Origin: a virus
IMG/VR virus record: IMGVR_UViG_3300035703_004065
Coordinates: 1 to 29,069 of that record
Length of the DNA stretch: 29,069 nucleotides
Strand: one strand, 5' to 3'
Positions 2,520 through 14,446 of the stretch are shown here, one piece after another. The translations under genes and the position numbers were made by a program. A model generated the notes under the pieces. That model saw nothing but the letters and a program-made list of their open reading frames with translations. It was not told the origin of the DNA and made no database searches. How positions within the stretch are numbered: the stretch's first letter is position 1; each line of letters starts with the position of its first letter.

Positions 2520-3704
2520 CTACGAACGCCGCGCGGATGTCAACGCGGCGTGGCCGTTGAGACGGCGAAAGCGGCTCTCAGCCCGAAGCAAGGCAGCGCA
2601 AGCCCAGCGCAACAACATGCGCGGGTCGCGCCAGCGGCGCACACGGGAAGTCCAGCCATGTGAGATGGTGAAGCAGCGACCGGCAAAGCGCGTCGTGGCC
2701 AGACTGGACCGCAGGGCGCGGTCAGGGGTGACGTGGTGCATGGTCAAAGTCAGTTCCAACTCTTCAGCAAAGGCGGCTGCGGCTTCTGTATTCAGATCCT
2801 GCAACCAGTTCAAAAGCTCAAACAGCGCGGCGTGGGCCTCTTGGGGTGACTGCTGCCGCCATGCCTTGCGGCTGCGCTGGAGCAATTCACGGTGGTGCTG
2901 CCGGGGCAAATGCGCCAACACATGACGCAGTTGGGCCGCGCGGCAACGTTGGATGAGAACGTCGCCAAATTTCTCCCGGATCGCGCGGCTGAGCGACTTG
3001 CCGGCATCGAGGACGAACAGGACATCCTTGCCCGTGAAACCACGGGAGCATAGTTGGGCGAGCAATTCATTCACGGCGGCGGGATCGTCCGTGCTGCCGG
3101 ATTGCAGACCGACCACCTGACGGCGGGCGGCTGCATCTACGCCATGCGCAATGATCATCTCCGCACCGCGCAATTTGTGGGTGCTGATGAACAGCACCCA
3201 TAGATTAAGCGGCAAAGGACGTTCCACGAGGGCTTGCAGTTCCTGGGCGGTGGCGTCGATCCAGTGACGGCTGACGCAGGACTTGGCGATGCCGTAACCA
3301 GATAAGAAGGTTTCGAGGGCGTGGGCGTATTTACGGGTGGAGATATTGCGGGTGAGCAGACCGGTGACACTGCGCTGCATCCGGCCATTCTGCTGAAAGG
3401 CGCGGTAGGAAGTGAGGGGGATTTCTGGTCCTTCATCGATGGGTCGCAGGCGGGGCCGCAAGACCTTGACCTTGCGCCCGCGCAGGATGACGTAGCCTTG
3501 CTCGCTGCCGTGCCGGTGACAGGTCTGGCGACCCCACTCGCCGCAGCGTTGGGTGACTTCCTCCTGCATGGCCCGCTGGATGACGAGCAGGGCGGATTCA
3601 GCGGTGAGCGAATCGAGTTCAGAGGTTGGGTTGGTAAACAGTTCGACCAAGGCGAGGTGGCCTTGGTCGTTTTCGGTATAGATAGGGCTATTAGGATACG
3701 ACAT
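2520..3704 (-). CDS. IS256/Mutator-type transposase-like protein, catalytic residues lost
   Basis: 394-aa protein with the overall layout of IS256-family transposases: GVDAAARRQVVGLQSGST (188-205), a second-Asp region LFVLDAGKSLSRAI (229-242), the IQRC element at 251-254, and a basic end RVRRWRD...LRWACAALLRAE...FRRLNG. Three hallmark positions are changed. The first catalytic Asp (normally in an LDG/LDA turn) lies where this protein reads FISTHK near 172-177. The His of QRCxxHK is replaced (RCRAAQLR). The third-residue Glu (normally in TTNLIEN) is replaced in TTRFAGR (337-343). The frame is nonetheless open at normal family length. I see no terminal inverted repeats or target duplications. 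This suggests a domesticated DNA-binding relative rather than a mobile element. Residue assignments are by eye. Confidence 0.78.
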   Translation of the reverse strand: MSYPNSPIYTENDQGHLALVELFTNPTSELDSLTAESALLVIQRAMQEEVTQRCGEWGRQTCHRHGSEQGYVILRGRKVKVLRPRLRPIDEGPEIPLTSYRAFQQNGRMQRSVTGLLTRNISTRKYAHALETFLSGYGIAKSCVSRHWIDATAQELQALVERPLPLNLWVLFISTHKLRGAEMIIAHGVDAAARRQVVGLQSGSTDDPAAVNELLAQLCSRGFTGKDVLFVLDAGKSLSRAIREKFGDVLIQRCRAAQLRHVLAHLPRQHHRELLQRSRKAWRQQSPQEAHAALFELLNWLQDLNTEAAAAFAEELELTLTMHHVTPDRALRSSLATTRFAGRCFTISHGWTSRVRRWRDPRMLLRWACAALLRAESRFRRLNGHAALTSARRS

Positions 3705-4015: not shown

Positions 4016-4519
4016 ATGACAACACCCGCCATTCACTGTGCGCATGACGCGCTCGCCGATGTGGTTTCCTTGATGCCACATCCGCGCAATCCCAACCGCC
4101 ACCCGGAACGCCAGCTCAAGCTGCTGGCCCGCATCCTGGAGCATCAGGGCTGGCGCAGTCCTATCATCGTCTCCAAACGCTCCGGCTTCGTCATCGCCGG
4201 GCATGGCCGGTTGGAAGCCGCCAAGCTATCCGGCTGGGAGCATGTGCCCGTCAACTATCAGGAGTTTGCCACGGAAGCTGATGAGATGGCGCATCTGCTG
4301 GCCGATAACCAGATCGCGGAACTGGCCGAGATGGACGACGGCGAACTGGCTTCGCTGATTGATGAGTTATCCGGGACGTTGGATTTGGAACTGGCAGGTT
4401 TTGATGCGGACGCACTGAAAGAGTTGCGCCCGCAGGTTGCACCTGAGGCGTTCAAGGAAGTGAATGAGAACATTGAAACGGCGCACACCTGCCCGCGCTG
4501 CAACTACCAATGGTCATGA
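4016..4519 (+). CDS. ParB/sulfiredoxin-fold domain protein
   Basis: 167-aa protein with a ParB N-terminal-type domain: PHPRNPNRH (residues 22-30), then the conserved box GHGRLEAAKLSGW (63-75), followed by a helical acidic part (about 85-145). It ends with a zinc-knuckle-like CPRCNYQWS. Phages often encode such proteins directly beside DNA methyltransferases and terminases. Roles proposed for the family are DNA binding, nuclease or NTP-dependent clamp. I infer that it may target or assist the neighbouring modification enzyme. The stop overlaps the ATG of the methyltransferase gene (ATGA), which indicates translational coupling. Confidence 0.82.
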   Translation: MTTPAIHCAHDALADVVSLMPHPRNPNRHPERQLKLLARILEHQGWRSPIIVSKRSGFVIAGHGRLEAAKLSGWEHVPVNYQEFATEADEMAHLLADNQIAELAEMDDGELASLIDELSGTLDLELAGFDADALKELRPQVAPEAFKEVNENIETAHTCPRCNYQWS

Positions 4520-5682
4520 GCAAGCCATTGTATTCAGTCCCGACGATGGCAGAGGTGGCTGCGCTCCCGTGGAACGGCTACCACGTCATCAGCACTTTCT
4601 CAGGCTGCGGCGGGTCGTGTCTCGGTTATCGCATGGCTGGGTTCAAAGTCAGGTGGGCCAATGAATTCGTGCCCGAGGCACAGGCCACGTACAAGGCGAA
4701 CCACCCGGAGTCCATTCTGGACACCCGCGATATTAGAAGGATTCAGCCGGAGGAAATTCTGTCTGCGACCGGCCTCCAGCCGGGCGAGTTGGATCTGTTT
4801 GACGGCTCGCCGCCGTGCGCCAGTTTCAGCACGGCAGGCAAACGGGAGAAAGGTTGGGGCAAGGTGAAGCAATACAGCGATACCACCCAACGCACCGATG
4901 ATTTGTTTTTCGAGTACGCGCGGCTGTTGCGGGGATTGCAGCCCAAAGTGTTCGTGGCCGAGAACGTGCGCGGCTTGGTCATCGGCAGTGCCAAAGGTTA
5001 CTACCTTGAAATCTTCCGCCACTTGGAGAGCTGCGGTTATGTCGTCAAATCCGCCCTGATAGACGCGCAATGGTGCGGCGTACCGCAGAGCCGCAGCCGC
5101 ATCATTTTCATTGGTGTGCGCAAAGACTTGGGCTTGTCGCCCGTTTTCCCAAAACCGTTCACCTACCGCTATTCGCTGAAAGAAGCCCTGCCGCACATCC
5201 GCCGTGCGGTGCATGACACCAAGGGGCTGTTTAGCACGGGCGACATCACGCACCGGCCTTGCCCGGCCATCACGGTCGGGCCGAAGTCGCTCAACTCCAC
5301 GCATTACCTGGTCGAAGATGCGGGGCCAGCCTTGGCGCATTACGCCATCGGTGTCGAGTGGGACAAGCTCAAGCCCGGCGAGAAGTCCGACAAATACCTG
5401 AACCTCGTCCGGCCTGACCCAAACAAACCCTGTCCCACGGTGACGGCGATGGGGGGCATTGTTGGCGCGGCGTCGGTGACACATCCGACCGAGCGGCGCA
5501 AGTTCAGCATCCCGGAACTGAAACGCATCTGCTCATTCCCGGCGGACTTCGTGCTGACGGGTGACTACCGCCAGCAGTGGGAGCGGCTGGGCCGGAGTGT
5601 CCCGCCGCTCATGATGAAACGGATCGCGGAGACGGTACGAGACGAAATCTTATGCAAACTTGGAAATTTGACGCCAAAGTGA
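4516..5682 (+). CDS. cytosine-C5 DNA methyltransferase, motif X Arg variant; candidate carboxymethyltransferase
   Basis: 388-aa C5-cytosine DNA methyltransferase with all core motifs in order: I (STFSGCGGSCLG, 26-37), IV with catalytic Cys101 in GSPPCASFS, VI ENVRGL (149-154), VIII QSRSR (191-195), a target-recognition region of about 200-320, IX (RRKFSIPELKRICSFP) and X. In motif X the almost invariant Asn of GNSV is Arg360 (GRSV). I recall that Asn-to-Lys changes here let such enzymes use carboxy-SAM and make 5-carboxymethylcytosine, so a natural Arg beside a CmoA homologue is striking. No restriction partner is adjacent, so a protective or epigenetic phage role is more likely than a restriction-modification system. 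I chose the ATG at 4516 (ATGA overlap with the gene before); an in-frame ATG at 4510 is also possible. It overlaps the CmoA-like gene by 31 bp. Target sequence unknown. Confidence 0.93.
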   Translation: MSKPLYSVPTMAEVAALPWNGYHVISTFSGCGGSCLGYRMAGFKVRWANEFVPEAQATYKANHPESILDTRDIRRIQPEEILSATGLQPGELDLFDGSPPCASFSTAGKREKGWGKVKQYSDTTQRTDDLFFEYARLLRGLQPKVFVAENVRGLVIGSAKGYYLEIFRHLESCGYVVKSALIDAQWCGVPQSRSRIIFIGVRKDLGLSPVFPKPFTYRYSLKEALPHIRRAVHDTKGLFSTGDITHRPCPAITVGPKSLNSTHYLVEDAGPALAHYAIGVEWDKLKPGEKSDKYLNLVRPDPNKPCPTVTAMGGIVGAASVTHPTERRKFSIPELKRICSFPADFVLTGDYRQQWERLGRSVPPLMMKRIAETVRDEILCKLGNLTPK

Positions 5683-6344
5683 CCGCCTGTTTTGCCGACA
5701 TGCTGGCCCGCAGCATCCCGGACTATGAGACGATGCGCGGCATCGTGCTTGATCTGGGCAGCCGGTATGTGCAGCCCCTGACGAACATCGTGGACCTTGG
5801 CTGCTCGCGCGGCGAGGCACTGGCCCCGTTCATCGAGCGGTTCAGCACGCAGAACTACTATCTAGGCTACGAACATTCGCGGCCCATGCTGCGGGCGGCG
5901 CAGGAGCGGTTCGCAAAAATGCCCGTGGTGGAAATCCATCCGTGGGACTTGCGGGAGATGGTCCCGAACGTGTGGGCCTCGCTCTGGCTCTCGGTCCTTA
6001 CCATCCAGTTCGTGCCCGTGGAGTTTCGTCCGCGCATCTTCCGGGAGATACACGACCGCACGCTGGAGGGTGGGGCGTTCATCCTTGTCGAGAAAGTCCT
6101 GGGCAACGATGCGGAGACACAGCGGGTGCTGGTGGAAGCCTACCACGACTTGAAACACCGCAATGGTTACCGGCGCAAAGAGATTGAAACCAAGCGCAGG
6201 CAACTGGAGCAGGTGCTGGTGCCGTTGCCGGTGGCGACGACGGAAACCATGCTGCGCGCGGCGGGTTTTCGTTCAGTGGAAATGGTCTGGCGGGCGTACA
6301 ATTTCGCCGGGTGGCTCTGCGTGAAAGCGGAGGATGCCCGATGA
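5652..6344 (+). CDS. cmoA-like: CmoA-like carboxy-S-adenosylmethionine synthase
   Basis: 230-aa class I SAM-dependent enzyme that matches CmoA along its full length: FDAKV...FADMLARSIPDY (6-25), RYVQPLTNIVDLGCSRG (38-54, SAM-binding loop), TIQFVPVEFR (117-126), HDLKHRNGY (165-173), EIETKRRQLEQV (178-189), and NFAG...KAEDA at the end. CmoA converts SAM plus prephenate to carboxy-SAM (CxSAM). The Arg in KRxxLE that, from memory, holds the CxSAM carboxylate in E. coli (Arg199) is present as Arg182. In bacteria CmoA works with CmoB on tRNA U34; no CmoB is in this window. Instead the gene lies inside the DNA methyltransferase operon, starting within that gene and ending in an ATGA overlap with the small terminase. 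I infer that it feeds CxSAM to the neighbour. Alternative: a conventional methyltransferase or a tRNA role. Confidence 0.85.
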   Translation: MQTWKFDAKVTACFADMLARSIPDYETMRGIVLDLGSRYVQPLTNIVDLGCSRGEALAPFIERFSTQNYYLGYEHSRPMLRAAQERFAKMPVVEIHPWDLREMVPNVWASLWLSVLTIQFVPVEFRPRIFREIHDRTLEGGAFILVEKVLGNDAETQRVLVEAYHDLKHRNGYRRKEIETKRRQLEQVLVPLPVATTETMLRAAGFRSVEMVWRAYNFAGWLCVKAEDAR

Positions 6345-6928
6345 TTGATGCGAGTGCGGCCGAGAAGGTCTTGCAGGCGGACTTGGCCAACATCGTCCGC
6401 AAGGTGAAGGGCGGCAAGCCGCTGTCCAAGGCCGAGCGCGAACTGCTGGCCCGGCAACGGGCCAAAGTGGGGACGCTGGTGCCCTCTGCCATCGCGCTGG
6501 CGGAGCGGTTAGGCGTGGACCGGCGCACGCTCAACCGGTGGGCCAAGGAGCCGGGTTTTCCCAAAAAGAATACGGAAGGCTATGACGTGGATGCGGTGCG
6601 GGAGTGGGTGGCGTCCAATGGGTTGAAAACCAGCCGGGCCAGTGAGTTGAACGAGGAAAAGAAGCGGGTGGAGATCGAGAAGATACGGCTGGAGATCGAC
6701 ATCAAGAAAGGTTTGTACCTGCCCAAAGAGGAGGTGGTGCGGGATTTGGGCCGGTATGTGTTCACGTTGAAAACGCTGCTGCAGACGGCGGCGACCACGC
6801 TGGCCCCGCAGGTGGTCGGGTTGACAGTCCCCGAAGCCTTGGAACGGCTGCGCCAAGAGCATCATGAGATTTTGCGCACGCTGTCCGAGTCGGCATGGCT
6901 GGACCCGAGCGCATCCTCCGAGAACTGA
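6341..6928 (+). CDS. terminase small subunit-like DNA-binding protein
   Basis: 195-aa protein with an N-terminal helix-turn-helix (SAIALAERLGVDRRTLNRWAKE, about residues 47-68) and GFPKKNTEGYDVDAVREW, the usual Nu1-type layout. A charged coiled coil follows (ELNEEKKRVEIEKIRLEID, about 100-120), then a helical C-terminus. The position directly before the large terminase, which it overlaps by 34 bp, supports a role in recognising the packaging site. The ATG at 6341 is favoured by its ATGA overlap with the preceding stop codon. Confidence 0.8.
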   Translation: MIDASAAEKVLQADLANIVRKVKGGKPLSKAERELLARQRAKVGTLVPSAIALAERLGVDRRTLNRWAKEPGFPKKNTEGYDVDAVREWVASNGLKTSRASELNEEKKRVEIEKIRLEIDIKKGLYLPKEEVVRDLGRYVFTLKTLLQTAATTLAPQVVGLTVPEALERLRQEHHEILRTLSESAWLDPSASSEN

Positions 6929-8643
6929 CCCGCCCGCAAGACCCCTTGCCGGTGCCGGAGTGGTGCGCCCGGCATTTTCAGTTAGACAAGACTTCTCCGA
7001 TTCAGGGCCGGTATAATCCGAATGTTTCCCCGTGGCTCAACCAGCCGCTCCGTGACTTCCAGAATCCCCGCATCGGTTACCTGTTCTGCCGCGCAGGTGC
7101 GCAGACGGGCAAGACGCAGCTCGCCATCTGTGCTTTGACGTGGGCCGTGGCCGAGGAGCCGGGACCGGCCATGTGGGTGCTGCCAGCGGCGGACGAGTGC
7201 AAGACCTTCGCCCGGACCCGGCTCAAGGACTCATGGGAAAAGACCGAACCCGTCGCGCGGCTGCTGCCGTCGGATCGGTCGGACAATGCGCTGCTGGAGG
7301 TCAATTTTGCCACGATGCCGTTCCTGCTTACCGGTGCGAACTCTGGCAGCAAGCTCACCGGCAAACCGCTCCGTTACGTCTTTGGCGATGAAATCAAGGA
7401 CTGGCCACCGGGCACATGGGCCGTGGTGCGTAAGCGCGTCACTGCGTGGTTGGGCTTATCAAAGGTGTTCGGGTTTTCCACGCCTTACTTCGCCGGGGAT
7501 GATGTCGATGAAGGCTTCAAGGAAGGGGACCAGAACTTCTGGTACATGGATTGCCCGCACTGCGGACAGGGCCAGCACTTGGAATGGAGCCAAGTCGAGT
7601 GGGACAAGGTGAAAACGGAGGATGGCCGGTATGATTACCCGCGCATTTTCCCGACCATCCGCATCCAGTGCAAGGCATGCAAGGTGCCGATGGTCCGCGA
7701 CTCGTATCATGAGCGCGTGGCCTTGCTGCGCTCGGGCCGCTGGATCGCGCACAATCCCGCCGCACCCGAGGGCAAGCGGAGCTATGCGTGGAATGCGCTT
7801 ATCAATCCGCGCATCCCGCTGGCCGAACTGGTCGAGGAGTATCTGCGGGCGAAGGAAGCCGAGACGCAGGGTGTCCTGAAACCGTTGCAGGACTTTTACA
7901 ACCAGCGTCTGGCGTTGGGCTGGGATGATTGGGTGGGGCAGGGCAAACCGGTCAATCAGGAGGAATACGATCCGGCCGAGAAATGGCCGGATGAGTTCGT
8001 GCGCTTCTGTACCGTCGATGTGCAAATCCTCGGCATCTTCTACGCGCTGGTGTGGCAGTGGGCCAAGGGCGGGCGGGCACGGTATGTGGCCGCGCAAGAA
8101 TGCCATTCATGGGCGGAGGTGAGGGAATTTCAAACCACGCACCAGGTCAAAGACAAGCTGACGTTCGTGGACTTCGGTCATGAGCAGACGAGTGTGTTTG
8201 CGGAGTGCGTGCGCTATGGCTGGCGGGCGTTCCGGGGACAGGACAAGGAATTTTTCTTCTGGCGGACGAAGGACAAGAAAACCATCCGGCGCATTGTGTC
8301 GCCGCCGTTCCCGTGCGATCCGGCGGTGGGCACTTCGTTTCAGGGCAAGCGCGGTCTGGCGGAGGGTTACTATTGGAGCAACGACCAGATCAAGGACATC
8401 GTCAAACGGCTGATTGACGGACGGCAGTTTCTGATGCCGGAGGATGTGCCGGAGATGTTCATCCAGCATCTGAACTCGGAAACGAAACGGAAGGATGAGA
8501 AGGGCCGCTGGAAATGGGAACGCATCGGCAAACGTCCGAATCACCTATGGGACTGCGCCTGTATGCAGGTGGCGGCGGCGGTGCTGGGGAATATCTTGAA
8601 AGATGTGGTGACGGTCAAATTAGCAACTAGTCCTGCTCCTTGA
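6895..8643 (+). CDS. phage terminase large subunit (GpA family)
   Basis: 582-aa packaging motor and nuclease. ATPase part: Walker A GAQTGKT (68-74) and Walker B YVFGDE (161-166). A zinc-ribbon pair follows (CPHC at 220-223, CKAC at 259-262), and then the nuclease domain with candidate metal ligands Asp375 (TVDVQ), Asp426 (FVDFGH) and a late Asp in HLWDCACMQ. Length and order fit lambda gpA-like terminases. The last codons overlap the 3' end of a minus-strand gene by 17 bp, so the terminal TSPAP may derive from sequence brought in with that gene. Confidence 0.95.
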   Translation: MAGPERILRELTRPQDPLPVPEWCARHFQLDKTSPIQGRYNPNVSPWLNQPLRDFQNPRIGYLFCRAGAQTGKTQLAICALTWAVAEEPGPAMWVLPAADECKTFARTRLKDSWEKTEPVARLLPSDRSDNALLEVNFATMPFLLTGANSGSKLTGKPLRYVFGDEIKDWPPGTWAVVRKRVTAWLGLSKVFGFSTPYFAGDDVDEGFKEGDQNFWYMDCPHCGQGQHLEWSQVEWDKVKTEDGRYDYPRIFPTIRIQCKACKVPMVRDSYHERVALLRSGRWIAHNPAAPEGKRSYAWNALINPRIPLAELVEEYLRAKEAETQGVLKPLQDFYNQRLALGWDDWVGQGKPVNQEEYDPAEKWPDEFVRFCTVDVQILGIFYALVWQWAKGGRARYVAAQECHSWAEVREFQTTHQVKDKLTFVDFGHEQTSVFAECVRYGWRAFRGQDKEFFFWRTKDKKTIRRIVSPPFPCDPAVGTSFQGKRGLAEGYYWSNDQIKDIVKRLIDGRQFLMPEDVPEMFIQHLNSETKRKDEKGRWKWERIGKRPNHLWDCACMQVAAAVLGNILKDVVTVKLATSPAP

Positions 8644-9253
8644 CAGTTTCAACCTTAATACGTGGCAGTCCTCTCATTCTGTTTTCAAGCTCAGTTATGC
8701 TTTTGGATCGTGCAAATTCAAACAGCTTTGTGAGTTCAGTCTTATATTGTCCCATCATTTTCCAGCGAAAGAGAACCGATGTGTCGGCTTCACGAAATTC
8801 AAAGGCGCGACCTTCCAAATAAAGTCCACTGTGTAAGGGTTTTGAGGTTTCTTGCACCACATTCTCAAAGTGTGCCTTCGCTAGTTCAAGCTCAGAGGCC
8901 AGCATGGCCTCAGCAGAGAACACTTCTGGAAAGTCATTCAAGGTGACAACTCTGGAACCATATTCGGCAGAATAGTGTGTGGCTCTAATGAGGTAGGTGG
9001 GTTTCTCAAGCCCTGTAATGATAAAATGTTCAGCGAAAAGGTCTGATGAGGTTGTGCTGTCACTTGCTACCAGAATGGTGGGATTGACTTTGCCAACCAG
9101 CTTGTTTGCTGTGAAGACCTTCAGAAGTGATTTCTGTTCAATTTTTTGACTGCTCATATTTTTCAGTGAAAATGCAATGGGCGTTTTTCCTCCCGTTCCC
9201 ATTTCAGAATGGGCACATTGAAAAACAGTGTCAAGCTGGTGAAAGCTAATCAT
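8627..9253 (-). CDS. unknown protein, minus-strand cargo after terminase
   Basis: A 208-aa protein (from the ATG at 9253, MISFHQL) without a fold I recognise; a mix of strands and helices, no signal peptide. The frame stays open upstream to an ATG at 9379, giving 250 aa, but that extension lies in GC-richer DNA that also holds a long inverted repeat, so I prefer the shorter form. The gene is visibly AT-richer than the terminase and portal genes and runs against the operon. Its stop codon lies inside the terminase gene end. These traits mark it as acquired accessory cargo (moron-like), probably expressed independently of virion assembly. Confidence 0.6.
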   Translation of the reverse strand: MISFHQLDTVFQCAHSEMGTGGKTPIAFSLKNMSSQKIEQKSLLKVFTANKLVGKVNPTILVASDSTTSSDLFAEHFIITGLEKPTYLIRATHYSAEYGSRVVTLNDFPEVFSAEAMLASELELAKAHFENVVQETSKPLHSGLYLEGRAFEFREADTSVLFRWKMMGQYKTELTKLFEFARSKSITELENRMRGLPRIKVETVKEQD

Positions 9254-9261
9254 CAGAAAAG

Positions 9262-9333
9262 TTGCCGGGCACAAAACGCCAAGGAGGTGGGGATTGGGGA
9301 ATCCCGCTGAAGAAACGTATCCGTGCCCGGCAA
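9262..9333. repeat. long inverted repeat with nested hairpin
   Basis: Perfect 11-bp arms TTGCCGGGCAC (9262-9272) and GTGCCCGGCAA (9323-9333) enclose 50 nt that contain a smaller hairpin (GGGATT-GGGG-AATCCC, about 9291-9306). Read on the minus strand it lies between the small membrane gene and the preferred start of the cargo gene. It could be a leader RNA structure or an attenuator, or mark a recombination boundary between GC-rich and AT-rich DNA. Confidence 0.6.
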
Positions 9334-9369
9334 AAACAATAGGGCCACCAATGGGCGGGATGTGCAACC

Positions 9370-9543
9370 TTATTCCCATCGGAACCTGACCGCCTTCAGC
9401 CGGTCATCGGCATATCCGGCGAAGCCCTCCGCCAGCTCGTAGAGGCAGCGGCACACGTAGGCGGTCCAGAGCGCGGCCAGTCCCAAGACGAGGGCCAGCA
9501 CGCTGGACAGGGAGAACAGCCACAGGGTCAGAAACTTCTTCAT
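9370..9543 (-). CDS. 57-aa predicted membrane protein
   Basis: A short open frame beginning MKKFLTLWLF and ending in a charged stretch (DDRLKAVRFRWE). Residues 4-30 form one long hydrophobic segment (LTLWLFSLSSVLALVLGLAAL and on), a transmembrane helix or uncleaved signal anchor, followed by a Cys pair (CRC, 31-33) and an amphipathic tail. The GC-rich composition resembles the phage backbone more than the AT-rich gene after it. It starts 21 bp from the GGTGACA box of the rightward gene. A superinfection-exclusion or lysis-related role would fit its size, but there is no direct evidence. Confidence 0.5.
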   Translation of the reverse strand: MKKFLTLWLFSLSSVLALVLGLAALWTAYVCRCLYELAEGFAGYADDRLKAVRFRWE

Positions 9544-9563: not shown

Positions 9564-9570
9564 GGTGACA
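9564..9570 (+). promoter_or_regulatory. GGTGACA box before head-tail joining gene
   Basis: GGTGACA ending 13 nt before the ATG at 9584. It is the first signal of the rightward operon after the minus-strand insert 8627-9543. Confidence 0.5.
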
Positions 9571-9583
9571 TCGCACGGCGGGC

Positions 9584-9847
9584 ATGGCTTTAGGCATTTT
9601 CGTAGGACTCACCGAAGCGGAGCTTTTGGGCATCCGCGATTCCGCGCTGGCGGATTTGCGGAAAGGCACGACCACCACGGGCGTCACGTTCGCCAGTGGC
9701 AACGGCGTCAGCCGGGCGACCACCAAGCAGGTGACGATGCCGCCGCAAGAAATCTTATTGGAAGTCCGGTATGCGCTCCGTGCGCTGAATCCCGAAACCT
9801 ATGGCCGGAATGTCAGCCGCACCTTCGCCCGTGTCTCCCGCCTATGA
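9584..9847 (+). CDS. gpW-like head-tail joining protein
   Basis: 87-aa protein: helical N-terminus (GLTEAELLGIRDSALADL), a Thr/Gly beta-hairpin (RKGTTTTGVTFASGNG), and a C-terminal helix. This is the arrangement of lambda gpW, which closes the head pore after packaging. Its place between terminase and portal is also that of gpW. Its stop overlaps the portal start (ATGA). Sequence similarity is judged by eye. Confidence 0.75.
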   Translation: MALGIFVGLTEAELLGIRDSALADLRKGTTTTGVTFASGNGVSRATTKQVTMPPQEILLEVRYALRALNPETYGRNVSRTFARVSRL

Positions 9848-11292
9848 GCCGCCGTCATCGTTTGAAATCGAAACCGCGCGGCAAGGTGGCCTTTGGCGGC
9901 ACGAACGAACTGCACCCGGTGGGTTACACCCGGCAGCGGCAGATTCATTACATTCCGCCCGCGCGGGATACCAAGCAGGACATCAGCCGTTATACACAGA
10001 CCAAGCTCATGTCCTTGGGCCGGTATCTGTACGCCAACGTGGGATTCGTTCACGGGGCCATCAATGAACGCTCCTGCTATGCCGTGGGCACGGGCTGGGT
10101 GCCGCAGTTTGTGGGCAAGGACCGGAAATGGGGCGAGCTGGCCGAGGTCTGGCTGTGGGACTGGATGCGGATTTGCGACCTGCGGGCCGGGCCGTTTGAT
10201 TTCCGCACGGATTTGTTTCTGGCGTCAGTCGGCGTAGATCGGGACGGCGATGCGGCGGTGGTCCTGACCGAGAATGAGTTGGGTTATCCGCTCATCCAGA
10301 TGATTCCCGCGCATCGGATTGGGGACAATGGCGATGGGAAAGTGAAGGGCGGACGATTCGCCGGGAAAGAGATTTATCACGGTGTCATCTACGGGCCGCA
10401 TCAGCGCGTGATTGGCTACCGCATCCAAGGTGACGACACCCATGTGGACATCGGCGCGGAAAGTCTCCTGCTGATGCTCAATCCCGAATGGTGCGACCAA
10501 GGCCGGGGTATCACGGCGCTTTCTCCGGTCATCAATGACAACGTGGACATTGACGACATCCGTTCGTTCGAGAAGTTCGCGGTGAAGATATACGCCATGC
10601 AGACCATCATGGAGACGAACGAGAGTGGTCAGGCGGAGATGGGCGACGCCTTCCTGGACATGGCGCAGAGCGGAAACAAACCCGTCTATGAGGACATGGA
10701 CGGGGGCATGATCCGGTATTTCCGGGCCAATGCCGGCACGGGCATCAAAGCGTTTGAGCACAACCGGCCTTCCCCGAACGTCCAAGCCTTCCTGCGGGAA
10801 CTCATGCGCGGCTGTTACAACGCCATCGAGTGGCCGTTTGAATTGTCCTATGACGCCAGCCAGATCGGTGGGGCGAACATACGGATGATCGTTGCGAAAG
10901 CCCATCGCTCGATAGAAAAAAGGCAACTCCTGCTAGGAGTCATGGCGCGGCGGGTGGTGGGTTACGCGATTGCCAAGGCCATCAAGCTCGGGCTGCTGCC
11001 TTGGTCAGATGAGTGGTATCAGTGGGATTTCCAGATGCCGCAACGGTTGACGGTGGATGCCGGGCGCGAGGCGCAGAATGACCGGGAAGATTTCAAGATG
11101 GGGTTGACGACCTTGCGCGAGCTTTACGGCAAGCGCGGGCTGGACTGGATGGAGCAGATCGACCAGCGCATTGACGAGGCGAAGTATCTCTTGGACCAAT
11201 GCGCCAAGAAAGGCGTGGACCCGCGTTATGTGCAGCTCATCACGCCGAATGAGAAACCGGCGGGTGAGAAAAATGACGAACCAAACGGCTAA
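9844..11292 (+). CDS. phage portal protein (lambda gpB type)
   Basis: 482-aa portal, the dodecameric ring at the capsid vertex through which DNA is packaged and ejected. The lambda-type signature is seen in the N-terminal region (YTQTKLMSLGRYLYANVGFVHGAI shape near residues 40-65), the wing (PAHRIGD, GDDTHVDIGAESLLLMLNPEWCDQGRG), and the stem and crown (FEKFAVKIYAMQTIM; ELSYDASQIGGANIRMI). I start at 9844, in an ATGA overlap with the joining protein; a longer frame upstream lacks portal-like sequence. Its TAA stop overlaps the stop of the next, oppositely oriented gene by 4 bp (CTAA). Confidence 0.92.
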   Translation: MSRRHRLKSKPRGKVAFGGTNELHPVGYTRQRQIHYIPPARDTKQDISRYTQTKLMSLGRYLYANVGFVHGAINERSCYAVGTGWVPQFVGKDRKWGELAEVWLWDWMRICDLRAGPFDFRTDLFLASVGVDRDGDAAVVLTENELGYPLIQMIPAHRIGDNGDGKVKGGRFAGKEIYHGVIYGPHQRVIGYRIQGDDTHVDIGAESLLLMLNPEWCDQGRGITALSPVINDNVDIDDIRSFEKFAVKIYAMQTIMETNESGQAEMGDAFLDMAQSGNKPVYEDMDGGMIRYFRANAGTGIKAFEHNRPSPNVQAFLRELMRGCYNAIEWPFELSYDASQIGGANIRMIVAKAHRSIEKRQLLLGVMARRVVGYAIAKAIKLGLLPWSDEWYQWDFQMPQRLTVDAGREAQNDREDFKMGLTTLRELYGKRGLDWMEQIDQRIDEAKYLLDQCAKKGVDPRYVQLITPNEKPAGEKNDEPNG

Positions 11293-12309: not shown

Positions 12310-13131
12310 ATGCGGTTCACGCATCTGCATCAACAAGTTTATCATCGTCCGTGGCTGATAACGCCGGGGGGCTGGTCTGCTGTCCATGAACTGCTGCAAA
12401 GCAAGGTGGCCGGGGAAAAACTGGACCTGTCCGATTTTCTGCCGCCCCGCGCAGAATTCGCCATCGAGAACGGGTTGGCCTATGTCCCTATCCAAGGCGT
12501 CATCGGCAAAGGACTCTCCAAGGTCGAGCAATCCTGCGGGGCCTGTGGCGTCGAACAGATCCACGCCGACCTTGGCCGCGCACTGGCGGACCCGTCCGCG
12601 CGCGGCATCTTTCTCGACATCGGTTCACCGGGCGGCACCGTCTGCGGCGTGCCGGAGGTGGCGCGGGCCGTGGCCCTCGCCAACGAGCAAAAGCCCGTCA
12701 TCGCCTTTGTCGATGAGCTGATGGCGTCGGCAGCATACTGGATTGGTGCCTCGGCTGGGGCCATCTACGCGACCGAATCCGCCGACATCGGGAGCATCGG
12801 TGTTTACCTGCCGAATTGGGACTTGTCCGAATATTACCAGCAGATGGGGGCCAAGGTGCAACTCATCAAAGCGGGCAAACTCAAGGGAATCGGCTATCCC
12901 GGAACCTCTCTTTCCGACGACCAGCGCGAACATCTGCAAGCCGGAGTGGATGACATATATGCCATGTTCACCGGTTGGGTGACGCAGCAGCGCGGGGCGG
13001 TGCCCAACGAAGCCATGCAGGGCCAGACTTTCCTCGCGCGGCAAGCTCTCCAACACAACCTCATTGATGGTGTCGTTTCCTCCCGCACAGAAGCCGAGAA
13101 CGAATTGCGCCGCGTTTTGGACCTCATCTGA
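12310..13131 (+). CDS. S49 family capsid maturation protease (gpC-like)
   Basis: 273-aa SppA/ClpP-fold serine peptidase as in lambda gpC, which cleaves head proteins during prohead maturation. Seen: GSPGGT (105-110, oxyanion loop), nucleophile Ser140 in DELMASAAYW, TESADIGSIGVY (155-166) and a Lys in AGKLKG (188-193) as general base. Position between portal and scaffold/capsid genes matches lambda. No fused scaffold domain is visible in its C-terminus; a separate coiled-coil gene follows. Confidence 0.9.
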   Translation: MRFTHLHQQVYHRPWLITPGGWSAVHELLQSKVAGEKLDLSDFLPPRAEFAIENGLAYVPIQGVIGKGLSKVEQSCGACGVEQIHADLGRALADPSARGIFLDIGSPGGTVCGVPEVARAVALANEQKPVIAFVDELMASAAYWIGASAGAIYATESADIGSIGVYLPNWDLSEYYQQMGAKVQLIKAGKLKGIGYPGTSLSDDQREHLQAGVDDIYAMFTGWVTQQRGAVPNEAMQGQTFLARQALQHNLIDGVVSSRTEAENELRRVLDLI

Positions 13132-13540: not shown

Positions 13541-14446
13541 ATGCCAAACAGCCTAGGAACCATTCAGGCGGGCAAGGTGGTCACGCAGCGGATGCTGGAA
13601 CTGCTCCTCGCGCAGTTCCCGCTCCTGCGGACCGTCGCGCACGACCTGAGCAGCGACCAGATCAAATGGGGGGAAACCGTATTCGTGAAGAAACGGGGCA
13701 CCTTCACCGCGCAGGACTTCGACCCGGCCACCGGGTACGAGCCGCAGAACATCACGATGGGCGACTTCCCGGTGACGCTCAACCAGCACAAACACGTCAC
13801 CATCGCCCTGAACGACCATGAACTCACCAGCACCGACCTGGACATCATCGATGCACACGCCGAACCGGCGGCGCATGCCTTGGGCAAGGCCATCTATGAC
13901 GACCTGTTCGGATTGGTGAAGGTGGCGGACTTCCCGAATGAGAGCGTGATCGCGCTCAATGCGTATGACCGGGACACGGCGGCGGACATCGCCAAGGCGT
14001 TGAACGACCGGGAAATCCCCGACGTGCGCCGGTATGTGATGATCGGGAACGCGTACGCGAACAGCCTCGAAAAAGACCTGAACGTCATCGCCAACTTCAG
14101 CCATGACAACCCGTTGCTGAACGACGGCAAGCTGCCGCGCATCTCCGGCTTGCAGCACTGGCGTTACACCATGCTGCCGCACAACGGCGAATACCTGACC
14201 GGCATCGCCGGTCATCCCGACAGTCTGGCCTTCGCCGCGCGGGTGCCGAAGATGCCACGGGCCGGGGTCGGTTACACCGGCACCATCGAGATCGTCACGG
14301 ACGCCAAGACGGGCCTCTCGGTCCAGCGGCGGCACTGGTACGACATCAAACTCGGCAAGGAAATCAGCGTGGTGACGATGATGTATGGGGTGGGGAAGGG
14401 GGAGCCGAAAGCCCTGCAACGACTGGTCAGCCAAGCGAGCGCATAA
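13541..14446 (+). CDS. major capsid protein, P22-coat-like HK97 fold
   Basis: 301-aa capsid candidate. KWGETVFVKKRGTFTAQDF (about 43-61) followed by ITMGDFPVTLNQHKHVTIALNDHELT (71-96) is the pattern of P22-type coat proteins (N-arm, E-loop, then the spine helix AHALGKAIYDDLFGLV). The domain RYVMIGNAYANSLEKD...GLQHWRYTMLPH reads as the A-domain. The gene is in the expected position after the scaffold. It lacks a decoration-protein partner of obvious type. I am confident of the role, less so of the subfamily. Confidence 0.85.
   Translation: MPNSLGTIQAGKVVTQRMLELLLAQFPLLRTVAHDLSSDQIKWGETVFVKKRGTFTAQDFDPATGYEPQNITMGDFPVTLNQHKHVTIALNDHELTSTDLDIIDAHAEPAAHALGKAIYDDLFGLVKVADFPNESVIALNAYDRDTAADIAKALNDREIPDVRRYVMIGNAYANSLEKDLNVIANFSHDNPLLNDGKLPRISGLQHWRYTMLPHNGEYLTGIAGHPDSLAFAARVPKMPRAGVGYTGTIEIVTDAKTGLSVQRRHWYDIKLGKEISVVTMMYGVGKGEPKALQRLVSQASA

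Follow-up and report, generated by a model that had tools for sequence, protein, structure and literature searches.

The window, the whole IMG/VR virus record of 29,069 bases, was searched in full and holds a three-gene cassette among the genes of a tailed phage. The cassette opens with a gene for a ParB-like (ParB_N) protein of 167 aa (4016..4519, + strand; PF02195, PHROG 620 and PHROG 498). It continues with cmoX, predicted to encode a DNA cytosine C5-carboxymethyltransferase of 390 aa (4510..5682, +; PF00145, nearest structure 8yf3), and cmoA, predicted to encode a carboxy-SAM synthase of 230 aa (5652..6344, +; 4gek, TIGR00740 and PHROG 4752). A Mutator-family transposase gene (2520-3704, −) lies immediately 5' of the cassette, between an integrase gene (1-1311, −) and the ParB-like gene. 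On the other side are genes for the terminase small subunit (TerS; 6341..6928, +; PHROG 57, E 1.2e-19) and a GpA-type terminase large subunit (TerL; 6895..8643, +; PF05876, E 3.1e-37; PHROG 15, E 2.3e-74), followed by the portal (9565-11292, +), an S49 protease (12310-13131, +) and the major head protein (13541-14446, +). Searches of Pfam, PHROGs and the phage collection gave no match for an ORF of 250 aa between terminase and portal (8627-9379, −). Genes for the tail tube and the tape measure were also identified in the record with Pfam and PHROGs. The record is a temperate tailed phage or a prophage fragment, and its ParB-CmoX-CmoA cassette sits in the terminase operon.

The genes of the cassette are tightly packed. 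The ParB-like gene overlaps cmoX by 10 bp, cmoX overlaps cmoA by 31 bp and cmoA overlaps terS by 4 bp, the last as an ATGA junction in which the terS ATG overlaps the cmoA stop codon and the cassette reads into the packaging genes. Because the genes overlap one another in this way, the ParB-like gene, cmoX, cmoA and terS very probably form one transcript. The layout confirmed what a preliminary description of this DNA had reported, namely a complete C5-methyltransferase gene that overlaps a full-length CmoA homolog by 31 bp. Neither replication nor lysis genes were recognised in the 29-kb record, which may therefore be incomplete. Its nearest relatives include prophages in Verrucomicrobia MAGs, and the window CmoX is 68% identical to that of locus L046; this nearness hints at the host and is not proof of it. 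Two Verrucomicrobia MAGs, FR_27 and USDE_maxbin.037, contain about six separate CmoX-CmoA loci each (L048, L051, L052, L061, L067, L100; L055-L057, L059, L062, L066), many with terminase and portal genes, and such genomes probably carry several related prophages apiece.

The cmoX ORF is complete and matched PF00145 in a Pfam search (E 5.6e-55). Its closest solved structure by phmmer was 8yf3 (E 2.7e-75), titled 'DNA cytosine C5-carboxymethyltransferase in complex with Cx-SAM', which is the CmoX of Synechococcus phage S-B43 (SpCmoX); the runner-up was M.HaeIII (3e-26). An AlphaFold2 model of the window protein (pLDDT 83, pTM 0.84) also ranked 8yf3 first in Foldseek (E 3.6e-32, 36% identity), with the second match at 2.6e-23. 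Motif IV, SPPC at residues 100-103 (4807..4818, +), contains the catalytic Cys103 and aligns with SpCmoX S95-C98 and M.HhaI Cys81. Motif X reads GRSVPP and places Arg362 (codon 5593..5595, +) in the column of M.HhaI Asn304 and SpCmoX Arg350, such that the Asn expected of an ordinary m5C methyltransferase at this site (GN[AS]V) is replaced by Arg. SpCmoX residues F25, E47, F48, D69, C98 and R350 correspond in the alignment to F30, E52, F53, D74, C103 and R362 of the window protein; the Cx-SAM contacts (F30, E52, F53, D74 and R362) and the nucleophile (C103) are all conserved. No alignment to SpCmoX was obtained over the target-recognition region of the window CmoX, from which no specificity can be read, and the GC specificity of SpCmoX is therefore not transferable to the window enzyme.

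The 230-aa CmoA begins at the ATG at 5652; a longer ORF begins with GTG at 5577. The protein aligns over its full length with E. coli CmoA (4gek, E 1.8e-31, residues 3-229), matches PHROG 4752 (E 2.5e-66) and contains every CmoA motif quoted in the preliminary description (FDAKV, RSIPDY, DLGCSRG, HDLKHRNGY, KRRQLE and KAEDA). Against TIGR00740 (CmoA) it scored 137.6 bits, and the verified SpCmoA of S-B43 scored 115.6 bits. All phage CmoAs that we scored, these two included, fall under the NCBIfam equivalog cut-off of 193.3 bits; because the proven SpCmoA is among them, this cut-off does not discriminate here. Eight of the 11 mapped ligand-site positions of E. coli CmoA are kept in the window protein (Y39, D62, G64, S66, D117, F137, E164 and R199). 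The remaining three are changed (D89 to E, N90 to H and N132 to V, in E. coli numbering), and these same positions are substituted in SpCmoA too. Arg199 of E. coli CmoA forms a salt bridge to the Cx-SAM carboxylate (PMC3663124), and its equivalent in the window protein is Arg182 (codon 6195..6197, +). Phage CmoAs (L002-L037) split into a CmoA-like group with RSIPxY and a divergent HVREQLPWY group without Arg199, and both groups pair with CmoX.

Natural DNA carboxymethylation was described in December 2025 in phage S-B43 (Yang et al., Nat Commun 2025; PMC12783734), and a literature search on the subject found nothing besides that paper. The remark in the preliminary description that no natural system of this kind had been described is consequently out of date. 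SpCmoA was shown biochemically to make Cx-SAM, and SpCmoX produces 5-carboxymethylcytosine (5cxmC) with Cx-SAM, and not SAM, as its only accepted donor (PMC12783734). Arg350 of SpCmoX touches the Cx-SAM carboxylate in crystal structure 8YF3, and an R350N mutant is inactive (PMC12783734). In S-B43, CmoY then ligates glycine to the 5cxmC made by CmoX (PMC12783734).

Like S-B43, the window places a phage CmoA and a C5-methyltransferase with Arg in motif X in a single gene cluster, with the named Cx-SAM contacts and the catalytic Cys conserved and a predicted fold identical in kind. It differs from S-B43 in its ParB-CmoX-CmoA order, its overlapping genes, its location beside the terminase of a temperate phage and the target-recognition region of its CmoX, and no CmoY was found in the window record. 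Identity between its CmoA and SpCmoA is only 25%, and Arg199, absent from SpCmoA, is present in the window protein. Replacement of the motif X Asn by a basic residue also permits use of carboxy-SAM in M.MpeI N374K, but that enzyme is engineered, prefers CG sites and has no CmoA partner of its own (PMC12783734).

We consider it highly probable that cmoX and cmoA constitute a two-enzyme DNA carboxymethylation cassette, in which CmoA makes carboxy-SAM and CmoX carboxymethylates cytosine. This proposal rests on gene structure and homology, on the conservation of catalytic and cofactor residues, on the predicted fold and on the coupling of Arg to cmoA across relatives. CmoA would convert host SAM and, presumably, host prephenate to carboxy-SAM. 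CmoX would flip the cytosine, and Cys103 would attack C6. Arg362 in motif X would bind the donor carboxylate, so that the carboxymethyl group of carboxy-SAM would be used and not the methyl group of SAM. The expected product is 5cxmC in phage DNA at a short sequence, which most likely would shield packaged DNA from host nucleases. That the phage makes its own carboxy-SAM and carboxymethylates cytosine had been proposed in the preliminary description; the proposal is supported by the biochemically characterised S-B43 homologs (PMC12783734), from which we infer the activity of the window enzymes.

In the preliminary description, this proposal depended on whether other genomes combine the gene pair with the Arg variant, and we surveyed relatives of the window methyltransferase found in viral contigs, in bacterial genomes and among annotated phages. 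Each was scored for the residue at the M.HhaI Asn304 column and for any cmoA-like ORF within 6 kb. A CmoA query alone yielded no confirmed locus in viral contigs, its patterns being too specific, and loci were retrieved instead with a CmoX query and alignment. A cmoA gene lay within 6 kb of 146 of the 151 Arg-type relatives and of none of the 44 Asn-type relatives. Among the five Arg-type exceptions, L072 and L086 are at contig ends, L087 and L093 are near a CmoY-like ligase, and the fifth, Erwinia phage Y3, has its cmoA at a distance of 17 kb. Met or Leu stands at the motif X position in three relatives (Flavobacterium phage tooticki9-1, L123 and Melnitz-2), all of them without cmoA; L100, with a broken frame read as Ala, was left out of the counts.

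The survey bore out the co-occurrence on which the preliminary description had made its proposal depend. The pairing of CmoX with cmoA is far beyond chance, and the independent events behind it are few. In a FastTree phylogeny of 171 methyltransferases, the Arg/Asn label needs five changes, at least three of them on well-supported branches, and Asn groups without cmoA are nested within the Arg-rich clade. When pairs independent in the phylogeny were compared, cmoA went with Arg in 3.6 of 4 on average and the opposite direction was never seen; the sign test rests on these four pairs, too few to reach significance alone. Even inside one clade, cmoA comes and goes with the motif X switch. Because the Arg/Asn switch tracks cmoA, one residue can call carboxymethyl- versus methyltransferases in the CmoX-related family. 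In the CmoX of phage Y3 (L038 22410-24539), motif IV is split exactly between SPP and the catalytic Cys by an intein-like insert several hundred residues long, and the ligase gene of this phage, like its cmoA, is 17 kb from CmoX.

These counts also bear on two other explanations of the gene pair. One is that CmoX is an ordinary orphan m5C methyltransferase, which camouflages DNA with 5-methylcytosine and happens to lie beside an unrelated CmoA-like SAM enzyme. Close Asn-type enzymes with the same ParB neighbor, such as L145 (about 60% identical in the best segment), are presumably methyltransferases, as this explanation would have it. However, cmoA is absent near every Asn-type relative and present with the Arg-type, and SpCmoX, which has the same Arg, is restricted to Cx-SAM (PMC12783734). 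We regard plain methylation by CmoX as very unlikely. The other explanation takes up the origin of CmoA, which is known from a tRNA pathway (cmo5U modification in bacteria); the phage enzyme would modify host tRNA and have nothing to do with the DNA enzyme. The annotation 'tRNA methyltransferase' is attached to PHROG 4752 and to several phage records, and the E. coli CmoA/CmoB pathway shares CmoA homology and the cofactor with the system proposed here, but its acceptor is ho5U in tRNA and not DNA. The strict coupling of cmoA to Arg-type C5-methyltransferases argues against a tRNA role, the annotated genes of the window included no recognisable CmoB-like gene, and in S-B43 the phage CmoA supplies CmoX (PMC12783734). 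Taken together, these points make a tRNA function extremely improbable.

The ParB-like protein matched PF02195 with an E of 9.4e-5 (22.8 bits, under the cut-off of 26.3), PHROG 620 with 1.4e-36 and PHROG 498 (DNA methyltransferase) with 9.8e-36. Its C-terminus, CPRCNYQW, is a possible zinc ribbon. ParB was considered as a carboxymethyl-specific partner or a carboxylate-activating enzyme, and this was rejected on its equal frequency beside the two types of enzyme: a ParB-like gene adjoins 134 of 146 Arg-type loci and 41 of 44 Asn-type loci. Because it accompanies Asn- and Arg-type enzymes alike, ParB is not specific to carboxymethylation; it travels with the whole methyltransferase family whatever the donor.

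Since no amide ligase was found in the record, the simplest reading of the end product is 5cxmC itself. Pfam and PHROGs showed no ligase among the annotated window ORFs, and PF00733 (CmoY-type ligase) matched nowhere in the 29,069 bases of the possibly incomplete record; on these searches we rejected the idea that the window conceals a ligase or some other enzyme. Asparagine-synthetase-like ligases are near the cassette in 58 of the 146 Arg-type loci with cmoA and, where present, are almost always within it. Thirty-five loci that extend at least 3.5 kb to both sides are without a ligase. Ligase-free members are real and common in the sample surveyed, and many relatives, chiefly prophages of Verrucomicrobia, have terminase genes directly after a cassette without a ligase. 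The published survey found 5,615 CmoX candidates in IMG/VR, UniProt and MGnify, many near CmoA, ligases and ParBc, and 2,251 ligases (PMC12783734), and these counts therefore already imply a ligase-free class. As for a conserved extra gene special to ligase-free loci, the commonest neighbor cluster confined to them (228 aa, 19 loci) proved to be a terminase small subunit.

Several annotated phages resemble the window. Moraxella phage Mcat8 (L037; hypothetical genes AKI27361-AKI27363) has ParB-CmoX-CmoA followed by terminase and portal in a complete 40.7 kb genome without a ligase, but its CmoA is in the other sub-group (HVREQLPWY type) and its CmoX is 43.5% identical to that of the window. Pseudomonas phage PaBG (gp310/gp309/gp308/gp306) and Streptomyces phage TurkishDelight (gp122-125) keep ParB, CmoX and CmoA together as the window does, but include an asparagine-synthetase-like ligase in the cassette.

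Whether the window phage and a class of its relatives end at bare 5cxmC by way of the ligase-free ParB-CmoX-CmoA cassette is, in our estimation, an evenly balanced question. 5cxmC could instead be only an intermediate, to which a non-homologous enzyme, or a ligase encoded beyond the recovered sequence, adds an amine, as CmoY adds glycine; this differs from the explanation given above in the end product alone. S-B43 DNA holds 5-glycylcarboxymethylcytosine (5gcxmC) and no free 5cxmC (PMC12783734), and the 58 loci with a ligase and the possible incompleteness of the 29-kb record point the same way. On the other hand, PF00733 had no match in the window record, in the complete Mcat8 genome or in two further records, of 34 and 40 kb, that contain ligase-free loci, and the usual place of a ligase is inside the cassette, whereas the window cassette runs directly into the terminase genes. 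We consider further conversion of 5cxmC a real possibility, somewhat short of even.

The window is very probably a clear and well-supported addition to the S-B43-type system, with an apparently ligase-free architecture. It adds a member in a different genome setting, the terminase operon of a temperate phage. If ligase-free phages do carry free 5cxmC, their DNA would contain a natural acidic, negatively charged base, in contrast to S-B43, the only characterised phage, where only the glycine amide was found.

Outside the window, we started from cmoA-bearing phages without a neighboring C5-methyltransferase. PF00145 had no match in the whole genomes of Pseudomonas phage SM1 (locus at L042 5603-8684) and Gordonia phage Evaa (locus at L043 1-3952), where cmoA is near a ParB gene and a protein of about 510 aa in PHROG 5475, a PHROG of unknown function. 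The SM1 and Evaa proteins are homologous (33% identity), and further loci are in Aeromonas phage HJ05 (L206 91-3382) and at L207-L244. The phage collection holds 14 full-length PHROG 5475 members, from 12 SM1-like records, Aeromonas HJ05 and Gordonia Evaa; a cmoA search of the collection picked out the same groups, and in a wider scan cmoA stood alongside PHROG 5475 in 39 of 41 loci. No solved structure was matched by sequence. In the predicted structure (pLDDT 80.5), the region around residues 20-135 folds like ParB (7bnk, Z 10.8), and the region from about 244 to 474 takes up a class-I methyltransferase fold (best Z 12.3). PHROG 5475 may represent a second, non-CmoX class of carboxy-SAM-dependent phage enzyme. 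The 2025 paper found no N6- or N4-carboxymethyltransferase candidates (PMC12783734). That a second, unrelated family of enzymes is coupled to cmoA suggests that carboxy-SAM may have uses in phages beyond C5 of cytosine.

Staphylococcus phages F1, SPbeta-like and relatives (L044 7980-10498; L045 7980-9679; L246-L249) have cmoA beside a C5-methyltransferase whose motif X is GGVINQ, without the Arg that is the CmoX criterion of the 2025 paper (PMC12783734). Either another residue binds the carboxylate in these enzymes or a different logic applies; some of the loci also hold a CmoY-like ligase. Alcaligenes phage Afa-NA1 (L039 5947-12696) has a CmoA gene in a complete genome without a PF00145 methyltransferase, and the neighbors of this cmoA are annotated as NUDIX, dTMP kinase, adenine methylase (D12 class) and thymidylate synthase.
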